From positions 124,001-188,000 of the forward strand of contig SZYB01000001.1 of the NCBI GenBank assembly GCA_030263285.1: a stretch of 64,000 nt of DNA, written 5' to 3'. This DNA comes from Bergeyella sp. GTDB taxonomy: Bacteria > Bacteroidota > Bacteroidia > Flavobacteriales > Weeksellaceae. The position numbers were made by a program, and so were the translations under genes. Under the pieces are notes generated by a model. The model searched no databases, had not been told where the DNA came from, and saw only the letters and a program-made list of their open reading frames with translations. Shown piece after piece: positions 37,456 through 63,175 of the stretch. Each line of letters begins with the position of its first letter. The first letter of the stretch is position 1.

Positions 37456-37857
37456 TCGGGTCAGTAGTAGAAAATTCAATTAAAATTTTACTTTTAGGGG
37501 GGGGATAAAACGAAATGTCCAAAAACATAAAAAACACGCTTTTTTGTTAATGGCGGTAGTTTTTTAACTCTTTTTATACTGTAGAATCGTGGGGGTTAAG
37601 GTACCCTTTTTTATAAATAAGTAAAGGGGGGGGATAAATCGGTATAATCTATAGGGTTAATATCCTAAAAATGCATATAAATCACGTTTTCTATAGAGTA
37701 TACATAATATAACTCGCTGGTTTAATTTTGTTTATGTAAACAATAACTTGTTTTAGTGGGTATATCCAGCACTTTCATGCAGTAAAAGTGTTCTGTATAA
37801 TTATAAAAACCCCCTTCTTTTTTATGAATAAAATTTACTACAACTTGGCAATGGAAA
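37456..37857. other. gene-free stretch with two copies of an A-G8-ATAAA motif
   Basis: About 400 AT-rich bases before the prophage. AGGGGGGGGATAAA occurs twice (37496-37509 and 37625-37638), which is striking in such AT-rich DNA. No gene or RNA seen. The left end of the prophage may lie here or slightly to the right, but I cannot see an exact end. Confidence 0.4.
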
Positions 37858-38064
37858 TTGAAAGTAAAAAGTCTAAAATTCTATCAAAAGGGTATTATTT
37901 CCAAGGTTCAGCACGTGAAAAATCTAACAGATCTCTCTGAACAGCTTGATGGTACATTTTTTGACCAAAAAAAATACTCCTTTATCTGTGATATTGTAAA
38001 TGAGAATAAAAACGAAAATGACATCGTAGATTTTGTTAAGAAAATAAAGATTCAGGAAAACTGA
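37858..38064 (+). CDS. small hypothetical protein, possibly 5'-broken
   Basis: A 68-codon frame reading KSLKFYQKGIISKVQHVKN, ending in a charged C terminus (DIVDFVKKIKIQEN). It has no in-frame ATG; a TTG would be the start. ATGs at 37824 and 37851 open a different frame over the same bases, so a frameshifted gene of about 78 residues is also possible. No family recognised. Confidence 0.3.
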   Translation: MKVKSLKFYQKGIISKVQHVKNLTDLSEQLDGTFFDQKKYSFICDIVNENKNENDIVDFVKKIKIQEN

Positions 38065-38103
38065 ATTTTTACCACACTCTATCTCTGTGTTTTTTTCCTT
38101 TCT

Positions 38104-38590
38104 TTATTCATGAGTTCCTGATTTTTTTCGCTCTTCCATCTCCCTAAAAAGAGTGCTTTTTATGATACCTACAATGAATGAGTTATCTATCGACTGCCTT
38201 GTCTCTATGGTAGTCACCGAATCATAAATCTCCTGTTGATTGTCTCTGTTTTCCTTTCTAAAATCTTCTATCATTCTTTTATTTGTCTCCTTAAGGTCTT
38301 CTGTCTTCTTTTTATTCTCAACCACCAAATTCATTAACGCATTAAGTTTTTCTTCTATAGATAATTTTTCAAAAGATGAGTCGGAGGATCTGTTGGATTT
38401 CTCTTCTTTCTTAATCACCTCACCTTTTCCTGTAAGAAGCCACTCAGCAGACAGATTGGGATAACACTCCAAGTATTTTAGACAAAAAAACATCAGAAGC
38501 ACTAGAATTTATATGATATTTATCTACAAAACCTTTTTTAAGTTCCGCTTTTTCTAAAAAATATTTCGGTCTTGTTTATTGATTTTCAAT
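38104..38590 (-). pseudogene. phage repressor-type protein, N-terminally truncated and frameshifted
   Basis: The C-terminal part (CLKYLECYPNLSAEWLLTGKGEVIKKEE, then a coiled coil) matches helix-turn-helix regulators of Bacteroidota phages, where YPNL-AEWLLTGKGE ends the DNA-binding domain. The preceding bases still encode EKAELKKGFVDKYHINSSASDVF in another frame; the shift lies in a run of seven T (minus strand; A7 at 38484-38490). The first part of the helix-turn-helix is gone, replaced at about 38600 by the end of a tail gene. It cannot make a working repressor. Confidence 0.75.
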
Positions 38591-38598
38591 AAAATATA

Positions 38599-39003
38599 TT
38601 ATCCTGGATTTAGATTGTGGCTTTTCACCGCCAGGCGGTTGAGCGGGGTAAAATACGCCTGACTCCATCCCTGCAGGGCAGCGTAGAGTTTTTGCTCTGT
38701 CTCCAAATATTCCAGACCTTTTTTCTTTACTTCTTCCGGTGCTTTATTCCAAGTGGAGCTGTGGCTTTCAAAAACGAGTTGTAGGAGAATTTGCACCTCC
38801 CCCAGTTGTATGCTTCCCGCCATATTGGAATAACCGGAGTGAGGAAAATCGATCAATACGGCGGGATAAGAGAGCGGGGGGCGCTCGGTTTCCCCTATCT
38901 GATGCAGTTGGCCCAATTGCTGCTCGATGAATCGTATTTGCGGGACCTTTTCCGAAATTCTTTTTTCGATATCCAGGAAAATTTGTGAAAAAAAGTAATT
39001 CAT
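38599..39003 (-). CDS. phage tail-terminator-like protein (Mu gp37 type), 3'-truncated
   Basis: 134 residues starting MNYFFSQIFLDIEKRISE with PPLSYPAVLIDF and LQLVFESHSSTWN; related Bacteroidota phage proteins have this layout and continue about 20 residues with a conserved strand (DLKVI.M.FKTS-like). Here the frame ends at SHNLNPG where it meets the truncated repressor. Known family role: closes the tail tube. Its end and the repressor's missing start mark a deletion junction. Confidence 0.55.
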   Translation of the reverse strand: MNYFFSQIFLDIEKRISEKVPQIRFIEQQLGQLHQIGETERPPLSYPAVLIDFPHSGYSNMAGSIQLGEVQILLQLVFESHSSTWNKAPEEVKKKGLEYLETEQKLYAALQGWSQAYFTPLNRLAVKSHNLNPG

Positions 39004-39558
39004 AAGGTGATGATTTTTTTTAAGTCTCGGGTGAGTTTTCTTTTAAGGGCTTCCATAAGTACAGGGGAAGGGCTTTGCGTTGTGGGGATAAATTGTCTTC
39101 GGGGCATGTTCAGCCTTCTCTTGTGGGCTTTGACGAAGCTTTCTCCGCTTTTTCCGGTCAGGGTTTTACGGCGGAGATTCCCTTTTGAGGTGGGAGTTTC
39201 CGTTAAAAAACGGGTTTTAGCATACCGATTTCTCGTGTGTGAGGAGATGCTGACCACCCCCCGAAACCCTTCGTTGTGAATTTTGGCGTAGGGCACTTCA
39301 TTTCTGACGGTCACCTGTGCGTTTTCTGATGAGTCGGCTGCCTCCTCTTAAATTGCCTGTTTTTACCAAAATGGTCCCGCCTCTTTTGTTTTTTTTCCAT
39401 CTTTTAAAAGCATTCCCCTGCCATCCCTGTGCGGAAAAATTTCCGTCGATAAAATCAAGTACGGTGTTCCCCGCCCTTTCAGGAAATCCATAGGCTGCGT
39501 ATTTTTTTACTTTTTTTTCTCTTTTTTTCAGCAGGAGATAAAATTCTTCCGGTTTCAT
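39000..39558 (-). pseudogene. phage virion morphogenesis protein (Mu gpG-like), frameshifted
   Basis: The first half (MKPEEFYLLLKKREKKV, FIDGNFSAQGWQGNAF, ILVKTGNLRGG) and the second half (VTVRNEVPYAKIHNEGFRG) are in different frames. One extra A in the AAAA near 39,325 explains the break: removing it joins RLIR to NAQVTVRNEV. The protein family takes part in head-tail completion. The last codons overlap the tail-terminator start by 4 bases, an intact operon feature. Confidence 0.8.
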
Positions 39559-39584
39559 TTTTTTTGTTAAATTTGTAAAGTCAT

Positions 39585-39683
39585 TTAAGACACGGGTAGG
39601 CCTAACCCGCCTTGGCCGTGCCCCCACCTGACAGAAGGGTCTTTTTTAAAAAGACCTTTTTTATTTTTTATAAAGCAATATTC
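39585..39683 (-). pseudogene. small phage peptide gene, remnant without start codon
   Basis: A frame reading KKGLFKKDPSVRWGHGQGG and ending LGLPVS. A second relic at 62.9 kb encodes a similar peptide (KKGLLKDLSVKWGG, GLPVS), which shows that this was once coding. No ATG remains in frame. Function unknown. The same bases form a hairpin GGTCTTTTTAAAAAAGACC that could also end the upstream transcript. Confidence 0.4.
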
Positions 39684-40879
39684 CTTTTCTTGATTTTTCT
39701 ATAGAGCCGGTAAATTTTGACTCAGTCAAATACAGGGATATCGCGTTAAAATTTTCGTCCACGACGAGTTTGATAGCCCCTTTGTCGTAGTATTTGATGT
39801 AGGTTCTGGTGTTCTTATCCATGGGATTCAGCCAGATCTCGTCCGGATTTTTCAAGATATTCACCACTTCGGTTGCGTACAGGTATCTTTTTTCTCCCGA
39901 TTTTCTTAAGATATGCCACTTAAAGTAATTGAACTTCGATTTTGATTTTCCTTCATGACCGGGGAGAACAATTTCGGTATTTAGTCTGTCGTTTACCACG
40001 AGGTCATCTCCCTGTTTTTTCTTTTGTTTTTCCCACCAGGCGAAATATTCTTCTTCCGTGGTTTCCTTGTAATGCGGCAGGTTTTGCAACTGAATTTTTT
40101 CTGTACTTTTCAGTCCGTACTGCTCCCAGCTTAAGTTCTGTATTTTTTCTCCGTTTTTCAAAAAATAGGGGTGGTTGTTTTTAAAGATCAGCCGGCTTTT
40201 CCCCACGTTATTGTCGAAAATGGTATTTTTCAGTTCGGGTTTCATGATTTTTCCCGCTTCCTCCGCCGTGATTTTCTTGTTTACTTTCTGCTCGTATCCC
40301 GGTATCACCGTACAGCGGCAGTTCCAGCCGTTTGGAGGATAGATTTTATTCCAGATCGGGTGGTTCTTGGGTGCGTTAAACCGGTGTAATTTTTTGTGCG
40401 ATGGACGCGTCCTGGCATCATTTACCGCACTGTATTCCAGATAGTCTCCGAGGATGGAGTCCCACTTTGACGCCATAATCGCCGACATGTGCGCATGGTT
40501 GTACTCGGCTTCCAAATACTCCCGGTTGAACAGCGCTCCTGTGTCGGCAATTCTCTGCATAAATTTGCTAAAGCTTACGATCTGACCCTCTTCCCCTATC
40601 ATCAGATCGCGATAGTACTCCATCTGTGTAAAGCTTTTTGCCGCACTGAAAGGGTAGATATTCTGCTTGAGGTAATACGCTAAATTTTTATTCCTACGCC
40701 GGGACCCAAAGCCACCTCCACGGCACCGGATAAAATACCCGCGGTTTTAAGATGCAGGTCGGCGTTGATCTTTACGTTCCCCCCCCTAAAATTTCCTCCC
40801 AATCGGGGTCTTTGTCGTTTAAATTTTCTACGTTTAACGGAGTACAAGAACGGCATTTTGCTGCATAAAGTTTATTGAT
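39661..40879 (-). pseudogene. phage head morphogenesis protein (Mu gpF-like) with C-terminal PBECR-like nuclease domain, frameshifted
   Basis: The long part (320 codons from 40623) holds the gpF domain: LAYYLKQNIYPFSAAKSFTQ, NDARTRPSHKKLH and PPNGWNCRCTVIP. Its last ~100 residues (WHILRKSGEKRYLYATEVV, IWLNPMDKNTRTYIKYYD, IKLVVDEN) look like the PBECR nuclease-like domain often fused to such proteins. The N-terminal part, INKLYAAKCRSCTPLNVENL, continues in other frames with breaks at a G8 run (C8 at 40779-40786 on plus) and near 40,690. No intact start is left. Confidence 0.75.
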
Positions 40880-40884
40880 TTGCC

Positions 40885-42172
40885 CTATTTTTGTAGGGCG
40901 TGGTCGAAAAAATCGGCCACTTTTTTAAAAACCCGGTCTTTAAAACTCAGAGGTTGGAAGTCGGTGAGCTCCCGTATTTTTTCTTTCAATACGTGAGTTT
41001 CTTTCTCTTTCTTTTCCTCTTTGCTTTCTTCTCGATCGGTGTGGAGCTTGGGGTTTTGGGGTTTGGGAATTCCGTACGTTTCGTACCAGTAATCCGGATC
41101 AAAAGGCACTTTCTCGGATACCTGCAGGTCGATTTCCAGCCGCTTTTTAAGCTTTTCTAAGTTCAGCTCTATATTGTACTTAAATTTTCCTCCCTCCACG
41201 GGGTAACCGTAAGAGGAGAGAATTTTAAGAAATCGCGCGCTGTTTAAGGTGTTTTCTATAAAAACCAAATCGGAGGCGGTGATCTCGTCTTGTTGCTCTG
41301 CATGTTCTTTACTTTGGGCATACCCCGAACTTCTAGAAGAGGAAGTGGTTTCGGTATTTCCCAAAATACAGATGGCCATTTCTTCATTGCAAGCATTTTT
41401 AAATTTGTCCTGAAGGTCTCCGTTGCCGTTGCTCTGCTTGCCATCCAGCATAGAAAACTTGGCTTGTTTCGGGATCATCATAAAAAGACCGTTGCCTGAT
41501 TCTCTCCCCAGTTTTCTGATTTCCTCTTTGGTTTTCGTGTCGTAGGCATCGTATTCCACGATGCGAACCGGTTGACCGAAAATCTCTACGTATTGCGCCC
41601 AGTCGCCCCAATTGCCCCGCTTATAGACCGCATAAAGCGAACAGGTGAGCAAAAGCCCCAGATGGTTTTTCTCCCCGATCACCCACACAAAGGGAAGCTC
41701 GTCTATCTTAAATTCATCATCATAGGCGTTGTATTGATTTTTGGCAATGACCCCTTGTTCAATCTTAATGTGCTTGCGGGGAATCTCTTCCAAGGCAAAT
41801 TCCCTTCCGACTTTAAATTCCACGCCCGAAAGCCCCCAAAACAAAGACTCGAGAATTAACCTGATGAGTTTTCTCCCTTCCTCCCCTCTCATCAGATGGG
41901 TGATCTCCCTATTTTCGTTGCCCTCTCTGTCGATAAATTTGAGCTTTTTTTCAGTACGGAAGCGATCCTCTTCTCTATGATTCCGGATAAAAAACCGTCC
42001 ATAGACACCACGTCGTGATAGAGGTCATAGAGCTGCACACGGTTGGGAAAAGCGACAGACTCGGCTCTGATGACTGCAGATTTTAAACTTTCGATATCCT
42101 TTCTATTTCTGTCGGGTGAGGTGACGGAAAGATCGTAAATCACCGGAGTTTCTGCTTTTGTTTTTTTTACCG
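40885..42172 (-). pseudogene. phage portal protein (DUF935, Mu gp29-like), frameshifted
   Basis: The N-terminal piece (TPVIYDLSVTSPDRNRKD, YDLYHDVVSMDGFLSGIIEKRI) and the C-terminal piece (MRGEEGRKLIRLILES, PFDPDYWYETYG) are in different frames. Adding one base to the seven-T run at 41945-41951 (A7 on the coding strand) joins KKKLKFIDREGNENREITHL to the second piece. No clear ATG precedes the first piece; a GTG at the V of PVIYD is possible. The portal is the DNA entry ring of the head. Confidence 0.82.
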
Positions 42173-42174
42173 TT

Positions 42175-42618
42175 TTAAAAACGATTGATTCTTCTGATGT
42201 CCGAGTTCCAGAAAAACCCCTCTGCAGTGTTTTCTTCTTCAGGAGTGGGTTTGTAGGGCCACTCGGGGTTGATTTTTCCTACCCTGATATCGTAAAGGTA
42301 GCCGGGTTCTTTTTCCGTGCCTATCCAGATCATCCGGTCTTCGTGAAACAAACTCAAGCTTACAGAGGGGTTGGATTTCCTGACCAGAAAATAGGATGCC
42401 ATTACTTTCACTACTTTTTTAAGCCCTTTATCCTGGACATTCGGGGGGTCTTCTTCCACTCCAAAAAGGGCTTTTAAATCGTATTTAAACAAAAAGCCTT
42501 TGGCGAAGTCTTCCGCCGCTTTGATGTGCAGGGGGATTTCTTTTCCGTCTGCACGAGTGATTTCCTCGATGACTTCGGGGTACAAACCGGTTTTAAGTTC
42601 TTCCGGGGTAATGATCAT
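42175..42618 (-). CDS. phage gp36-like protein (DUF1320)
   Basis: 147 residues from the ATG at 42616-42618: IITPEELKTGLYPEVIEEITR is the typical start, LKKVVKVMASYFL and the end FFWNSDIRRINRF match DUF1320 head-completion proteins. The small-terminase frame upstream runs into it without a stop, so as it stands it could also be made as a fusion. One of the few prophage genes without an internal break. Confidence 0.65.
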   Translation of the reverse strand: MIITPEELKTGLYPEVIEEITRADGKEIPLHIKAAEDFAKGFLFKYDLKALFGVEEDPPNVQDKGLKKVVKVMASYFLVRKSNPSVSLSLFHEDRMIWIGTEKEPGYLYDIRVGKINPEWPYKPTPEEENTAEGFFWNSDIRRINRF

Positions 42619-43118
42619 TTTTTTAAATTCTGTATTTTGAAAAAGTTCGCGGGATGATTTCCACCTCTCCCAGTGCCTGCGTGGACTGCAATTCTTCCCT
42701 TTAAGGGTTTTGTCGATGAATTCCCCGAAATATTTTGCGCAGGTTTTGGCCAAATCGCGGTCTATGTCTTGCAGGAACCCGATAAACTTTTACCGTTCAT
42801 CACCATTTCCCCTTCCAATTTGTAAATATTGGAAGTGATTTTACTCATGATGTCGGCTTCCAGGTTGGTCGGTATTTTTTTCTCGCGGTGTTCGATTTCC
42901 TCATTGAGCGCTTCCAGCTGGTTGTAAAAGGCCACCAGTTGGTTTTCTTTGGTGGCCAACAGGCTTTTTCTGAGTTTGTCCCAGTTGCCCTCCCGGGCCC
43001 AACGGCTGATGGTCCTCTCGCTTACCTTGACTCTTGTGGCAATCTCCCGAAAAGACACCCGATCGTTGACGTAAAGCAGTTGTGCGTGCTCCTTTTCCTC
43101 TTTTTTACTCAATTCCAT
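42619..43118 (-). pseudogene. phage terminase small subunit (gp27/DUF1804-like), frameshifted
   Basis: Starts MELSKKEEKEHAQLLYVNDR with a helix-turn-helix (VSFREIATRVKVSERTISRWAREGNWD) that binds phage DNA for packaging. After NIYKLEGEMVMNGK the frame fails (SLSGSCKT stop); adding one base in the four-T run at 42788-42791 restores KKFIGFLQDIDRDLAKTCAKY and the rest. In that frame it runs on into the gp36-like gene with no stop. No large terminase follows. Confidence 0.78.
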
Positions 43119-43173
43119 ATTGGTTCATTATTACGCGGCAAAATTGAGACACCCCGGGAAAGAATAAAAAAAA

Positions 43174-43190
43174 TAGGAAATGATTTCCTA
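43174..43190. promoter_or_regulatory. 17-bp perfect palindrome between divergent phage operons
   Basis: TAGGAAAT-G-ATTTCCTA, exactly symmetrical around one base, in the 137-bp gap between the small terminase (leftward) and the protease (rightward). A regulator site shared by both late operons is the likely role. Confidence 0.5.
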
Positions 43191-43255
43191 AGTATTTTTT
43201 TAAAACATGGGGAACTGCAATTTTTGCCCCAGAAAAGATTCCGATACAAAATCCC

Positions 43256-43763
43256 ATGAAAAAAAACTCCGTTAAAATCGAAAAAGAATTTTGCATTACC
43301 GACAATTCGGTCAATGTGTACAAATACCGATTACTGACCGAAGGCTTGCTGTTGGATGAAGTGACCCCTCCCGATAGGCTACCTGATGCACGATAGGGGT
43401 AAAGGTGTGGTAGTGCGCTGGGAGGATTTCAGGGTGGAGGGGGATAAGGTTTTTGCAAAACCCGTGATCAACCTTTTCCATCCGGAAGGGGAAAAAATTG
43501 CTGGACAGATAAAAAACGGGTTTTTGAACACCGCCTCAGTGGGAAAAATCACCGTTTTGGAAATCTCCAACGACCCCAAACTCAAGCTCAAGGGGCAAAC
43601 GCGCCCGACGGGCACCAAATGGTTTCCGAGAGAAATTTCCCTGGTGGATATCCCCGGAAATTACAACGCTTTTGCCAATCTGTATGACGCACAAGACAAC
43701 CTACTCAACCTTTCCGATTTAGAACAACTAAACCCAATAAAAAAATATGAATACCCCATCTGA
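43256..43763 (+). pseudogene. phage prohead protease / I-protein (Mu gp32-like), frameshifted
   Basis: Starts MKKNSVKIEKEFCITDNSVN, breaks after LLLDEVTPP, and resumes in another frame as GYLMHDRGKGVVVRWEDFRV with FHPEGEKIAGQIKNGF and ISLVDIPGN. One surplus C in CCCCTCCC (about 43,365-43,372) explains the break. The family processes the scaffold during head maturation. Its end overlaps the next gene by 17 bases. Confidence 0.78.
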
Positions 43764-44223
43764 TTTTCTGGCAAAAATTGCCACTGCCCTAAACCTGTCC
43801 GATCATTCGGAAAACGAAATTCTTCGATATATAGAAGACCTTCAAGACAAGGCCTCGCAAGCGGAGGGCTTAAAAACGAAATTATCCGAGGTTCAAGAAA
43901 AGCTGGAGAGTCTCAATGAAAAAGTCCTTTCTGAGACAGTAGAAAACTTGGTGGCCAAGGGACTCAAAGAAAAGAAGCTTACCGTGGCGCTGGCGGAGTC
44001 CTTAAAAAAAGACTATAAAACCAACCCCGAAGGCTTGGAAGCGCTGATTGAAAATATGCCGGTCCAGTATTCTGCGGTGGGCCAACTCCGGCGCGATATC
44101 CCCGAGAAATACCGGGGAAAAACCTACCGCGATTTATACGTCAGTGGGGAATTGGAAGAAGTAAAGGAACATTTTCCCGCCCTTTTTGAATCGCTGAAAA
44201 AACAAGACCATAAGAATAATTAA
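43747..44223 (+). CDS. phage scaffold-like coiled-coil protein
   Basis: 158 residues, largely coiled coil (AEGLKTKLSEVQEKLESLNEKVLSETVENLV), lying between protease and capsid, the usual place of a scaffold. The middle has a helix-rich domain and the end YRGKTYRDLYVSGELEEVKE. The role is inferred from position and composition; the frame is intact. Confidence 0.6.
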   Translation: MNTPSDFLAKIATALNLSDHSENEILRYIEDLQDKASQAEGLKTKLSEVQEKLESLNEKVLSETVENLVAKGLKEKKLTVALAESLKKDYKTNPEGLEALIENMPVQYSAVGQLRRDIPEKYRGKTYRDLYVSGELEEVKEHFPALFESLKKQDHKNN

Positions 44224-44245
44224 GAATAAAAACCCTCTTTAGATT

Positions 44246-45202
44246 ATGAATGAAAATAAAGTAGCTCAGTAGTTTTGGAACCCCTACATCGTAGAAAAAC
44301 TCTACAAGACCAATCCGCATTTACAGTATGCGACGGACGAAACGAAATACGTAAGGTCTGGCGCAATTGTCTACATTCCTCAGGCGGGGAGTGGTCCTGA
44401 AATCGTCAAAAACAGAAATACCTACCCTGCGGTGGCGAAACAGAGAGCCGATTCGGTCGTGAGTTATATTCTGGATGAATACACTACCGACCCGACGCAC
44501 ATTTCGTGGAGGGAAAACATGGAAATTTCCTACCAAAAAACCGACAGCGTGCTCAGCGGCCATGTCAATGGTCTTACCGAGAGGGTGGGAGAAGAGATTT
44601 TGTATTCGTGGTTAAGGGGGGTTAAGCCCGTTAAGGGAGGGTATACCCCGGAATATATCCCTTCTTCCCGTATTTTTTTCACTTCCGGTGCTGCGGCGGG
44701 GGTCAACGCGGACGACGGGCAGTCGGGGCAAAGGCTGGCACTGCATCACAGGGATCTTTCCAAACTCCAGGCAAAGTTCAACAAGGACAATATTCCGGCC
44801 ACGGGAAGGTATATAATGATCGAAAGCAATATGTACCAACAGCTGATCGACAGTCTTTCTCAAAACCAAATGGCGGCTTTCCAGGCTACGGCAGATCTGA
44901 AAAAAGGAATTTTGGGCACTTTTGCAGGGTTTACCCTCCTCCAAAGGGGCAGCGTGGTGGCTTTCAACAGCAAATTAGAGCCTTTGGAAGTAGGGCAGTC
45001 ACTGGAAAAAGAAGACAACTTGGGTACCCTGGCTTGGCAATCCGATTGCGTGACCAAGGCGATTGGAGCGACGAATTTTTATACCAACATCAACGACGCG
45101 TTGTACTACGGTGATGTCTTTTCCGCCGGAGTAAAAATCGGGGGAAGGGCAAGGCGACAAGACTGGAAGGGAATCGCGGTCATCCTTCAAAAAACGGCCT
45201 AA
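44246..45202 (+). pseudogene. phage major capsid protein, early amber codon
   Basis: From ATG 44246 the frame encodes MNENKVAQ, then TAG at 44270-44272, then FWNPYIVEKLYKTNPHLQ and about 300 further residues without a break (SWRENMEISYQKTDSVLSGH, RYIMIESNMYQQLIDSL, SVVAFNSKLEPLEV). It resembles major head proteins of Bacteroidota Mu-like phages. Internal ATG codons are too far downstream (44432) to give a full shell protein. Unless the amber is suppressed, no capsid forms. Confidence 0.8.
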
Positions 45203-45203
45203 A

Positions 45204-45626
45204 ATGATGCGACCTATCCGCTACATCGCCGTGCATTGTACGGCAACCTCACCGGAAGTACCGGTAAGCGCCATACAACAATATTGGAAAAGGGAGCTAG
45301 GCTGGAAATACCCGGGCTACCACTACCTCATCAAGGCCGATGGAAAAATTGTAAACCTTCTTCCCCTAAGTCAGCCCGCCAACGGGGTAAAAGGCCACAA
45401 TGCAACTTCCGTCAATATTAGCTACATCGGGGGGATTGATCTTTTGGGAAACCCCAAAGACACGCGGACCGATGCACAAAAAAGAAGCCTGTTGCAGCTC
45501 ATAAAAAGCTTAAAAAAACGCTATCCTGCAGCGCGGATTCAAGGGCATCGGGATTTTACCGGGGTAAAAAAAGCCTGTCCCTCCTTCGATGCAAAGGAAG
45601 AATATAAAAATATAGGACCTAAATGA
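45204..45626 (+). CDS. phage N-acetylmuramoyl-L-alanine amidase (endolysin)
   Basis: 140 residues of the T7-lysozyme-like zinc amidase family, which cuts the peptide from muramic acid in peptidoglycan at lysis. YIAVHCTATSP carries the first zinc histidine, GYHYLIKADGKIVNL the usual strand, GHRDF the second zinc ligand and ACPSFDAKEEY the cysteine ligand region. ATG at 45204 or 45207. It overlaps the spanin-like gene by 4 bases. Confidence 0.88.
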   Translation: MMRPIRYIAVHCTATSPEVPVSAIQQYWKRELGWKYPGYHYLIKADGKIVNLLPLSQPANGVKGHNATSVNISYIGGIDLLGNPKDTRTDAQKRSLLQLIKSLKKRYPAARIQGHRDFTGVKKACPSFDAKEEYKNIGPK

Positions 45627-46095
45627 AGACTTATGGAATGCTTATCGTTCTTTTTCTCCTTTCCTGCAGGACAAGGCCCGTGGCGATTGAAAATACCCGT
45701 GAGGTGGTTACCACCGTGCGGGATACCGTGTACACCGTGTCTTCGGATAGCGCTTATTATAAAGCCTATATCGAATGCAAAAAGGGCATTCCCGTGCTTC
45801 TTGCCTCGGGGAAAGAGACCCGAAAGGGAAAAAAAAGAACGTACCCAAAGTACAATTAACCCATAACCTCCTAGAGGTCGACTGCAAAAGGGAAGAGCAA
45901 AAACTCTGCAAACAATGGAAAGAAAGGCATGTAAAAGAAAGCCGGCAAAAACCGATCTATATCAGTAAACCCATTGCGGTGGAAAGGCCGCTGAAATGGT
46001 ATGAAAAAACCCAAATAGGGCTGGGTAGAATTTTCATCGCTATTCTTTCTGTTTTTTCCCTTCTGGGCGTCCTTAGGCTAAAAAAAAAACTATAA
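45623..46095 (+). pseudogene. phage spanin-like lipoprotein / membrane protein, frameshifted
   Basis: The first part (MKTYGMLIVLFLLSCR, a lipoprotein-type signal; ENTREVVTTVRDTVYTV) breaks at an A8 run (45829-45836). One more A joins KKNVPKVQLTHNLLEVDCKREE and an end with a membrane helix (WYEKTQIGLGRIFIAILSVF). Position after the amidase suggests a role in disrupting the envelope at lysis; this is inference. Confidence 0.6.
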
Positions 46096-46107
46096 AAACA
46101 AAAAAAA

Positions 46108-46419
46108 ATGAACACAAACAAAGCCCGATCTTTGGATTATTTTTTAAGACACCCCTTAAGCAACGAATGCCACATCGTGGAGGGAAGGATTTTTTACACA
46201 AAAGACACTGCGCAAAGTTTTTCCAACACGTTGGAACATGCGGAAGTGGAAAGTTTTTACCGTTCTAACCTTAAGGAAAACGAGGGGGAGGAAAAGAAAA
46301 CCGTCAGAAAAAACCCTGAGGGAAAAGCCAAAGAGGAAGTCAAAAAAAGGCCTTTCCAGGCGGCACAACAAAATAAAAAAGAGAAAACGCAACCCCAAGA
46401 AAAAACCGCAACCCCATGA
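46108..46419 (+). CDS. hypothetical phage protein with Lys/Glu-rich tail
   Basis: 103 residues: an ordered N terminus (SLDYFLRHPLSNECHIVEGRI, FYTKDTAQSFSNTLEHAEV) and a low-complexity tail of lysine, glutamate and glutamine (KKTVRKNPEGKAKEEVKKR). It overlaps the sheath start by 4 bases. No family recognised; similar small proteins precede sheath genes in related phages, as far as I can recall. Confidence 0.5.
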   Translation: MNTNKARSLDYFLRHPLSNECHIVEGRIFYTKDTAQSFSNTLEHAEVESFYRSNLKENEGEEKKTVRKNPEGKAKEEVKKRPFQAAQQNKKEKTQPQEKTATP

Positions 46420-47579
46420 ATCAAGGCACAGGAACACCGAAGGTTTCCGCACACATTTCCTCGGGAAATCTCCTCCGTAAACTCTCCGTCACCGACGGGG
46501 TGGCCGGGGTGATCATCACCGCCCGAAAGGCAGAGAACATCGGTCGGGTGGAGAAAATGTACTCTTTAAGCGATGCGGAAAGCAAGGGCTACACGGCAGA
46601 GGGTGAGCCTTTTATCTACCGATTTCTCTACGAATTTTATCTGGAGCTGGGAGGCAACACGGAGCTTTGGCTTTTGGGTGTGGAGGATACCATGACCATG
46701 GAGGAAATGGTAGAGAGCACCCATGAGAACGGGTGTAAAAAACTCCTTACGTTCTCCAAGGGGAAAATCAATCTGGTGGGCGTTGCCCGCCATCCCAACA
46801 AAGGAGAGGAAATCTCCGGGGGCTTTTTAGATAAGGACGTGGAAAACGCGCTTTTGGCTTCCAAGTCGCTGGCAGAGTACCAGCAGTCGATCAACCGACC
46901 GGTGAGAATACTCATCGAAGGCAGGATAAAGGACGCAACATCGGAGGATATTTTCGAACCTCGGGAAGCGGAAAACACCTATGCCGGAGTGGTATTGGGT
47001 TCTTCCAGACCCGACGGATCCGCCTCTCTGGGCACCGCTCTTGCCAGGGCATGCAAATACCCTGCCCACATAAAATTGGGCAACGGGCAAAACGGTCCCC
47101 TCAGCCTCACCCAAGCCTATATCGGCAAGCAGCCCATAGACGAAATCAACCCGACGGAGTTGGACAATTTATCCGATGCGGGGTATATTTTGATGCATAC
47201 GCGGGAGGGTTCAGCCGGCTACTACTTCGGCATAGACAATATGGCGGGCACTTATGATTTTAGATTTTTGGCCCACGGGCGGATCATCGACAAAGCCCAG
47301 CGCGTGGCCACGGCGGCAGCGACGCCTTTTCTGGAAACCCATATGAGGATGAGCAGAGAAGGGGAAATTAACGCCAGTGATGCGAAATATCTGGAGGAGA
47401 CGATCAAAGCCCAACTGAACACCTCCCTCGTGGATCAGGTAAGCGAGGTGGCGGTGCTGGTGGATATCGCGCAAGATCTCATCAATACGTCTACGCTTTC
47501 CATAGAGGTGAAGGTGCAGCCGTTGGGGTATCTCTCTTGGATCCGCATTACGTTGGGATTAACCACAAACACAGAATAA
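46416..47579 (+). CDS. phage contractile tail sheath protein (DUF2586-like)
   Basis: 387 residues, intact. Characteristic segments are DGVAGVIITARKAENIGRV, ENTYAGVVLGSSRPDGSASLGTALARA, GRIIDKAQRVATAAATPFLETHM and a C-terminal VEVKVQPLGYLSWIRITLG strand that fits the sheath's handshake interlock. It marks the phage as a myovirus type. The tube gene follows after 3 bases. Confidence 0.75.
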   Translation: MNQGTGTPKVSAHISSGNLLRKLSVTDGVAGVIITARKAENIGRVEKMYSLSDAESKGYTAEGEPFIYRFLYEFYLELGGNTELWLLGVEDTMTMEEMVESTHENGCKKLLTFSKGKINLVGVARHPNKGEEISGGFLDKDVENALLASKSLAEYQQSINRPVRILIEGRIKDATSEDIFEPREAENTYAGVVLGSSRPDGSASLGTALARACKYPAHIKLGNGQNGPLSLTQAYIGKQPIDEINPTELDNLSDAGYILMHTREGSAGYYFGIDNMAGTYDFRFLAHGRIIDKAQRVATAAATPFLETHMRMSREGEINASDAKYLEETIKAQLNTSLVDQVSEVAVLVDIAQDLINTSTLSIEVKVQPLGYLSWIRITLGLTTNTE

Positions 47580-47582
47580 AAA

Positions 47583-48026
47583 ATGAGCAACATCAACATC
47601 ACTTCTTCCGAGTGTGCGTGTGCGCACTTTGAGGTGCAAATTTTAGGAAGGGTCATCAAAGGCCTTCGGGGATTTTCCATCAATAAAACCGTGGACAAAG
47701 AGCATATCTATGGCTCGGGAAATGAGCCGCTCGACATACTGGGGGGAAATATAAAATACGAAGGCTCGGTAAAACTCTTGGGGTTCGAGGTGGATGCCAT
47801 GCATAGGGCAGCACAACTGGCGCAGTTTTCGGACATCACCGACGTGCCACATGAGGGCATTGTACTTTTTATCTCCTACAGAAAACGCCCCTTTGATCCG
47901 CTAAGAAGCTACACCGTGACGGGGGTATCTTTTACGGAAACCGGAGTCAACTTAGAGCAAAACGCGAAATACCGGGAGATCACCCTTCCCTTTATTGCGA
48001 TGAATATTGACCAAACGATACTTTAA
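47583..48026 (+). CDS. phage tail tube protein
   Basis: 147 residues, mostly beta: FEVQILGRVIKGLRGFSINK, VDKEHIYGSGNEPLDILGG, EGSVKLLGFEVDAM and REITLPFIAMNI. These match the tube-protein fold of Bacteroidota Mu-like phages, and the place right after the sheath is standard. Confidence 0.7.
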   Translation: MSNINITSSECACAHFEVQILGRVIKGLRGFSINKTVDKEHIYGSGNEPLDILGGNIKYEGSVKLLGFEVDAMHRAAQLAQFSDITDVPHEGIVLFISYRKRPFDPLRSYTVTGVSFTETGVNLEQNAKYREITLPFIAMNIDQTIL

Positions 48027-48036
48027 AAAAATCATC

Positions 48037-48617
48037 ATGTCAACACATAATTTAGAAAAGGCCTTTGCGGCCGGAAAAAAAGGGGAAAACAAGGGGAAGG
48101 AAACCCCCGAAAAAAAGAGAAAACGACCTCACTCCCTTTTACGAAAGGTTTACGGAGGGGAAAATAGAAGAGTGGAAAAAACAGTTTAAAGGGAGGGAAC
48201 TGATTTTTATCCGGGTAGAGCATTTTTTGGCGGTTTTAAGACCTCCCACGGTGGAAGACATCGCCAACTATCTTACCCTTGTGACGGGGGAAAATATGTC
48301 GAAAGCGGTGAGCGCGTTGTTGCAGGATTTGTGGCTGGATGGGGATTATGATTTAATTGAAGACGAAGACAATTTCATTGCGGTGTTTTTTCAAATCAAC
48401 ACGCTGATGGAGGGAAAAAAATCGGAATTTTTTCGCGCTTAGCGAGAGGGGAAAGAAGGACTATGAAGAGGAAAAAACCGGGCTGGAGGAACTCATCGTT
48501 TTTGGAAGTATGCGTTTTGGGGCCAATGCACTAAAGGAATGGGGTGAAGACCTGTTTTTTTACCGTACGGGAATCGCCTTAAAAATTTGGGAAAAGCAAA
48601 AATCTTTTTTAGAATGA
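48037..48617 (+). pseudogene. phage tail assembly chaperone pair, frameshifted, with candidate -2 slip site
   Basis: First part: MSTHNLEKAFAAGKKGENKG breaks in an A7 run (48110-48116) and resumes as ENDLTPFYERFTEGKIEEWK through LIEDEDNFIAVFFQINTLME, ending EFFRA at TAG 48440-48442. A second coding part (ALSERGKKDYEEEKTGLEEL, FGANALKEWGEDLFFYRTG) ends at TGA 48615-48617. A -2 shift on TTTTTTC (48428-48434) would fuse them, as known for the two tail chaperones of phage Mu. The TGA overlaps the ATG of the tape measure gene. Confidence 0.55.
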
Positions 48618-48976
48618 ATACCAATGCCGTCGAACTTGTCGTAAAGATGAAAGACCTGATGTCGAGAGGACTGGTCAGGCTTTCACAAAATTCCACTTCC
48701 GCCTTTGGAAAAATCACCCAAAAGGCCAAAACCCTTGCGGAGAGAAACAAGGCGGTAGCCGAGGCTTTTGGGACAGCGACAAGAAAAGCCAAAGAGCTGG
48801 AAAATACGGTAAAATCCTCGGGGGTGGAAGGGAAGCTCAGAACGATACGACAGGAAATACAAGCCTTACACAATGTAGGGAGAGGCGGGGGCATGGGCAC
48901 CAAAGGCGCGATGATGACCGCCACGGGAATCATAAATACCCTTGCAAATTCGACTATTTTATTTCTTTTTTTATAA
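48614..48976 (+). pseudogene. phage tail tape measure protein, N-terminal fragment
   Basis: About 120 residues: MNTNAVELVVKMKDLMSRGL, then coiled coil (NKAVAEAFGTATRKAKELEN) and a glycine-rich turn (GRGGGMGTKGAMM). Tape measure proteins are several hundred residues or more and set tail length. Here phage-like sequence stops near 48,945 and the frame ends in STILFLFL, so the rest of the gene and all baseplate and fibre genes are deleted. This is the right end of the prophage. Confidence 0.65.
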
Positions 48977-62884: not shown

Positions 62885-63175
62885 TATTATTAAAAAAAGG
62901 GGGAATATTTTTATTAAAAAAGGTCTTCTAAAAGACCTTTCTGTCAAGTGGGGGGGTACAGCCTCGGCTGATTAGAGGCTTACCTGTGTCTTCCATGACA
63001 GCACAAGTGCAAGAAAAAAAATAAAACTGGAAGAATCTCAACGGCTGCTTACAAAAAAGCCAAGGGATTTAAGCGGTATGCAGCCTACGGTTTTCCGGAG
63101 ATAGCGGAAAGGATATGCTTAATTTTGTTGAGGGAAATTTTGCCGCCCAAGGTGTTCAAGGGGAGGCCAGCCTAG
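62885..63175 (+). pseudogene. second Mu-like prophage relic: small peptide gene and gpG-like fragment
   Basis: Plus-strand homologue of the minus-strand stretch at about 39,690-39,430. It holds the hairpin AAAGGTCTTCTAAAAGACCTTT, the small-peptide frame (KKGLLKDLSVKWGG, later GLPVSSMT) and a gpG-like start whose ATG is now ATA (KLEESQRLLTKK). RYAAYGFPEIAER and MLNFVEGNFAAQGVQGEA match KYAAYGFPERAGN and VLDFIDGNFSAQGWQGNA of the prophage but lie in different frames. Clearly diverged, so it derives from a related phage or an old duplication. Confidence 0.7.

Follow-up and report, generated by a model that had tools for sequence, protein, structure and literature searches.

Bacteriophage fF4 of Flavobacterium columnare has been described as resembling the transposable phages (PMC7761591). 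By its tail sheath it is a distant relative (24% identity) of the element analysed here, which lies in a Flavobacteriales chromosome between an ABC-transporter gene and dnaE, the probable insertion site of a Mu-like (fF4-type) transposable prophage. The window, the whole 64,000-nucleotide stretch of DNA analysed, is part of contig 12 (930 kb) of a genome of 1.68 Mb in 30 contigs. With the intact sheath as query, IMG/VR returned four contigs, three of them ~61% identical. IMG/VR 2922497737_000001 (31.7 kb; hereafter G059), whose sheath is about 62% identical to that of the window, has a complete Mu-like gene set: MuA, MuB and early genes, together with a head module that runs leftward, a protease-capsid-lysis-tail module that runs rightward, and genes resembling baseplate and fibre components, all named from position and resemblance. 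Alignment of the portal gave 67 viral contigs and ten bacterial loci, of which six belong to Chryseobacterium or Epilithonimonas; the named genomes with relatives of the prophage belong mainly to these two genera, so the host probably belongs to the Weeksellaceae or to a neighbouring family of Flavobacteriales. A DNA search of the host's nearest relatives (same family or order, none of the same genus) found no copy of the element, and a sheath scan of genome contigs gave no match.

To call lesions, each G059 protein was aligned to the DNA of the window, permitting changes of frame. Every gene that is broken in the window is one open frame of near-constant length in the relatives examined (portal 441-456, protease 316-335 and large terminase 510-522 aa), and the capsid gene is likewise open (318-322 aa; 359 in the most distant one). 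About one third of a Mu-like phage remains in the window.

The head module runs leftward, on the minus strand. To its left is the remnant of an XRE-like repressor (38104..38590), identified by a 33-residue match to phrog_9710 and a three-frame reading; its N-terminal part is missing and a frame change, read by eye in three frames, falls at a run of seven bases near 38483-38489. The adjacent conserved Mu-like structural gene (phrog_6911; 38599..39003) aligns to residues 1-130 of the relative's 168, its C-terminus being lost where it abuts the repressor remnant. The genes that lie past it in the relative (MuA, MuB and the early genes) are absent from the window, with none of them between the repressor remnant and the structural genes. 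One frame change is found in the gpG-like virion morphogenesis gene (39000..39627), within 39298-39350 (53 bases, no run longer than 4), and two in the gpF-like head gene (39661..40870; Phage_Mu_F and PBECR2 domains), the first within 40772-40874, which contains a G8 on the coding strand, and the second within 40680-40749 (70 bases, no run longer than 5). The stretch of gpF that encodes its C-terminal PBECR2 nuclease-like domain (39661-40623; E 3e-9) is still open; in several gpF relatives (L025-L027, L029) the alignment ends at about residue 282, and these apparently have another C-terminus or none. The Mu-type portal gene (Portal_Mu; 40885..42167) has a single frame change within 41892-42027, an interval containing an A7, and is followed by an intact gp36/DUF1320-like gene (42178..42618), which over its full length has 79 of 147 residues in common with the relative. 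All that alignment to the relative recovers of the large terminase is its last ~24 codons (42626..42697); the other ~486 codons (510 aa in G059) are deleted. The small terminase (42700..43118) has one frame change within 42762-42792 (31 bases, no run longer than 4). The Mu-type head assignment comes from domain matches to Portal_Mu (5.7e-52) and Phage_Mu_F (2.3e-14), and from synteny and alignment for gpG and gp36.

The second module runs rightward, on the plus strand, from the protease to the tape measure. The protease/scaffold gene (43274..44223) has two frame changes, one within 43362-43396 (35 bases, no run longer than 4) and one within 43738-43763, which contains an A7. A natural split of protease and scaffold was considered and rejected, as every relative examined has a single open frame here. 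The major capsid gene (44246..45202) has a premature TAG at codon 9 (44270-44272) and is otherwise open, with no frame change. An intact N-acetylmuramoyl-L-alanine amidase (endolysin; 45204..45626) is followed by a spanin-like gene (45623..46095) with one frame change within 45760-45859, which contains an A8. Next come a small conserved phage protein with an intact frame (46108..46419), the intact tail sheath (DUF2586; 46416..47579) and the intact tail tube (47583..48026; 100 of 147 residues shared with the relative), the last two both being components of a contractile tail. The tail assembly chaperone (48037..48442) has one frame change within 48053-48189, which contains two A7 runs. The tape measure is cut after the first ~108 of 581 residues (48593..48940) and the rest of the tail module is deleted: past the cut there is no baseplate or fibre gene, all tail-tip genes are lost, and dnaE starts ~150 bases beyond the tape measure end.

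A further change of frame at the end of the chaperone was considered as damage and rejected. Just ahead of the stop codon an extension is entered in another frame (48426..48616, plus strand), which is open and conserved. The TTTCG at the overlap is invariant in 21 of 21 rows of relatives, mostly as TTTTTTCGC and in some as TACTTTCGC, a few of these rows being one prophage present in two collections (L011 12040-12240; L013, L025-L029, L035, L037-L044, L047, L050-L052, L068). Judged from this conservation, it is most likely a normal programmed event. The overlap fits either a +1 or a -2 frameshift, the latter being known for phage Mu (PMC5009743), and the TACTTTCGC forms fit better with +1 (UUU to UUC).

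Against the intact relatives there are ten frame changes in eight genes: two each in gpF and the protease, and one each in the repressor, gpG, portal, small terminase, spanin and chaperone. The sequence-only reading had named all of these but the second protease site, and the comparison bears it out; the capsid TAG, the large terminase deletion, the cut tape measure and the absence of MuA and MuB are likewise additional to its list. Its description of a prophage broken almost gene by gene goes a little too far, since five frames are intact (gp36/DUF1320, amidase, the small protein, sheath and tube). Nine of the frame changes were confined, by stop codons in both frames, to intervals of 26-137 bases. 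Five of these nine (gpF first site, portal, protease second site, spanin and chaperone) hold a run of at least 7 bases, compared with 1.4 expected for intervals scattered randomly over the element (P about 0.006), and with the repressor, read by eye, six of the ten changes lie in stretches with a 7-8-base run. The other four (gpG, gpF second site, small terminase and protease first site) lie in stretches with no run longer than 5, and runs of 3-5 bases are ubiquitous in the sequence. Slippage runs are favoured as lesion sites, as expected from slippage, yet not all lesions occur there; the initial placement of every frame change at a homopolymer is only partly borne out. The contrast with the flanks, where it had described genes rich in runs and nevertheless intact, stands: intact host open reading frames of at least 150 aa (46.3 kb) contain 79 runs of at least 7 bases, and damage at such runs is 5 of 30 in the prophage versus 0 of 79 in the host frames (Fisher P = 0.001), which were picked by length and are biased to intact ones but make up 88% of the flanks.

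Six of the ten frame changes lie at 7-8-base runs and the genome is a draft in 30 contigs, which speaks for miscalled bases or collapsed reads of related copies confined to this region. We regard such sequencing or assembly error as very unlikely overall, although any one run may carry a miscall. The capsid TAG, the kilobase-scale deletions and the four frame changes away from long runs are not producible by homopolymer miscalls, which therefore favours decay. Poor base-calling should also harm the runs of neighbouring host genes, which are intact; the lesions are neither restricted to homopolymers nor shared with the neighbours. The only other copies found in the genome are a 94-base piece at 97% identity and a 239-base piece at 71%. 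Comparison with intact relatives shows the frame changes, the TAG and the deletions, and the host flanks are undamaged; the nonsense codon and deletions are stronger evidence of decay than the homopolymer lesions. Genuine decay of a prophage silenced not long ago, the preferred account from the outset, is thus supported by the deletions, the nonsense codon, the non-homopolymer frame changes and the undamaged host runs. Loss of mismatch repair was rejected as the cause of the indels: the genome has both mutS and mutL as open frames, so no such defect is needed.

The idea that another, intact copy provides the missing genes was also rejected, as none was found for MuA, terL or the DNA of the region. 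The MuA of G059 has no match in the genome, and the only terL relative is a 101-residue fragment with two stops (G000:C12:86217-86519, L105; two internal TAA codons), another phage remnant. The 94-base piece, from the portal, is isolated just past the ribosomal protein genes rplT and rpmI (G000:C12:94920-95013; L019 9921-10014). The 71% piece, from the gpG/gpF region, lies at 62915-63152 of the window beside a type I restriction-modification locus and a tRNA-Ser, and is a remnant of another related prophage. Left of the prophage, an intergenic stretch (37490-37640) has two G8 runs, each followed by ATAAA, and parts of it have matches elsewhere in the genome (L004, L005).

The surviving coding sequence of the prophage amounts to about 3,200 codons and contains one nonsense codon. 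Taking 4.3% of single-base changes to create a stop, and assuming neutrality and no hidden stops, this corresponds to ~0.24% neutral divergence since inactivation (Poisson range 0.006-1.3%), which suggests that inactivation is recent, at roughly 0.2% neutral change with a wide error. At sites invariant among relatives (figures added up by hand) the broken genes of the window differ at 93 of 651 (14%), and its intact gp36, sheath and tube genes at 30 of 270 (11%); the corresponding figures for G059 are 40 of 598 (7%) and 16 of 256 (6%). Because broken and intact genes are changed nearly equally, most of the divergence is older than inactivation, and away from their lesions the broken genes show little more erosion than the intact ones, as fits a recent loss. 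By gene, the capsid is high (30/144), and the intact tube is also fairly high (12/72).

The five open genes, sheath and tube included, are a point against decay. Intact sheath, tube and amidase frames might mean that the host retains these for its own use, for example as a tailocin or lysis module. Such a device would be without baseplate or fibres, with a cut tape measure and broken spanin and repressor; relatives-invariant residues are changed nearly as often in intact as in broken genes, and the intact frames are explained by the short time since inactivation, so that we consider domestication extremely improbable. Just as doubtful is continued expression by transcriptional slippage at poly(A) runs, described for the endosymbionts Buchnera and Blochmannia (PMC5009743). 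Five frame-change intervals do contain runs of 7-8 bases, but the run cited for those hosts is longer, at 9, and slippage has no way to make good the capsid TAG or the loss of terL, MuA/MuB and the tape measure; it could rescue single proteins at most. A remnant that is partly domesticated rather than dead, in which certain products (sheath, tube, amidase or slippage-rescued proteins) continue to be produced and to serve the host, is likewise highly unlikely.

We instead favour, at a probability of about 0.93, a Mu-like prophage that inserted, was deleted in parts and is decaying by slippage, indels and nonsense mutation. Deletion has removed the transposition genes, the large terminase and most tail genes; what remains would now drift without selection, replication slippage at 7-8-base runs and other small indels shifting most surviving frames and one nonsense mutation striking the capsid gene. 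The order and age of these events, and the lack of any present function, are what we infer from the lesions. The biology is ordinary, that of a defective prophage, a dead virus remnant. Its interest is as a clean case of early prophage decay, with many intact relatives against which to judge its lesion spectrum (about ten frame changes per nonsense codon, along with deletions).

The element shares a syntenic, divergent head and tail layout with G059 and the Chryseobacterium/Epilithonimonas prophages (L025-L030), at about 38-68% protein identity to G059. In these the genes are open, and G059 also has the MuA, MuB, terL and full tail that the window remnant does not. With fF4-like Mu-type Bacteroidetes prophages it has in common the Mu-type portal, gpF, gpG, gp36/DUF1320 and contractile tail; unlike them it is shortened, broken and devoid of MuA/MuB (gene order was compared with G059). 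On gene content it is a remnant of such a Mu-like phage, predicted to be non-functional since MuA and MuB are absent here and present in the relative. Large terminase, tape measure, baseplate and transposition genes are gone or shortened relative to intact relatives, and in its deletions, small indels, nonsense mutation and missing mobility genes the element shows no notable difference from defective or cryptic prophages generally.
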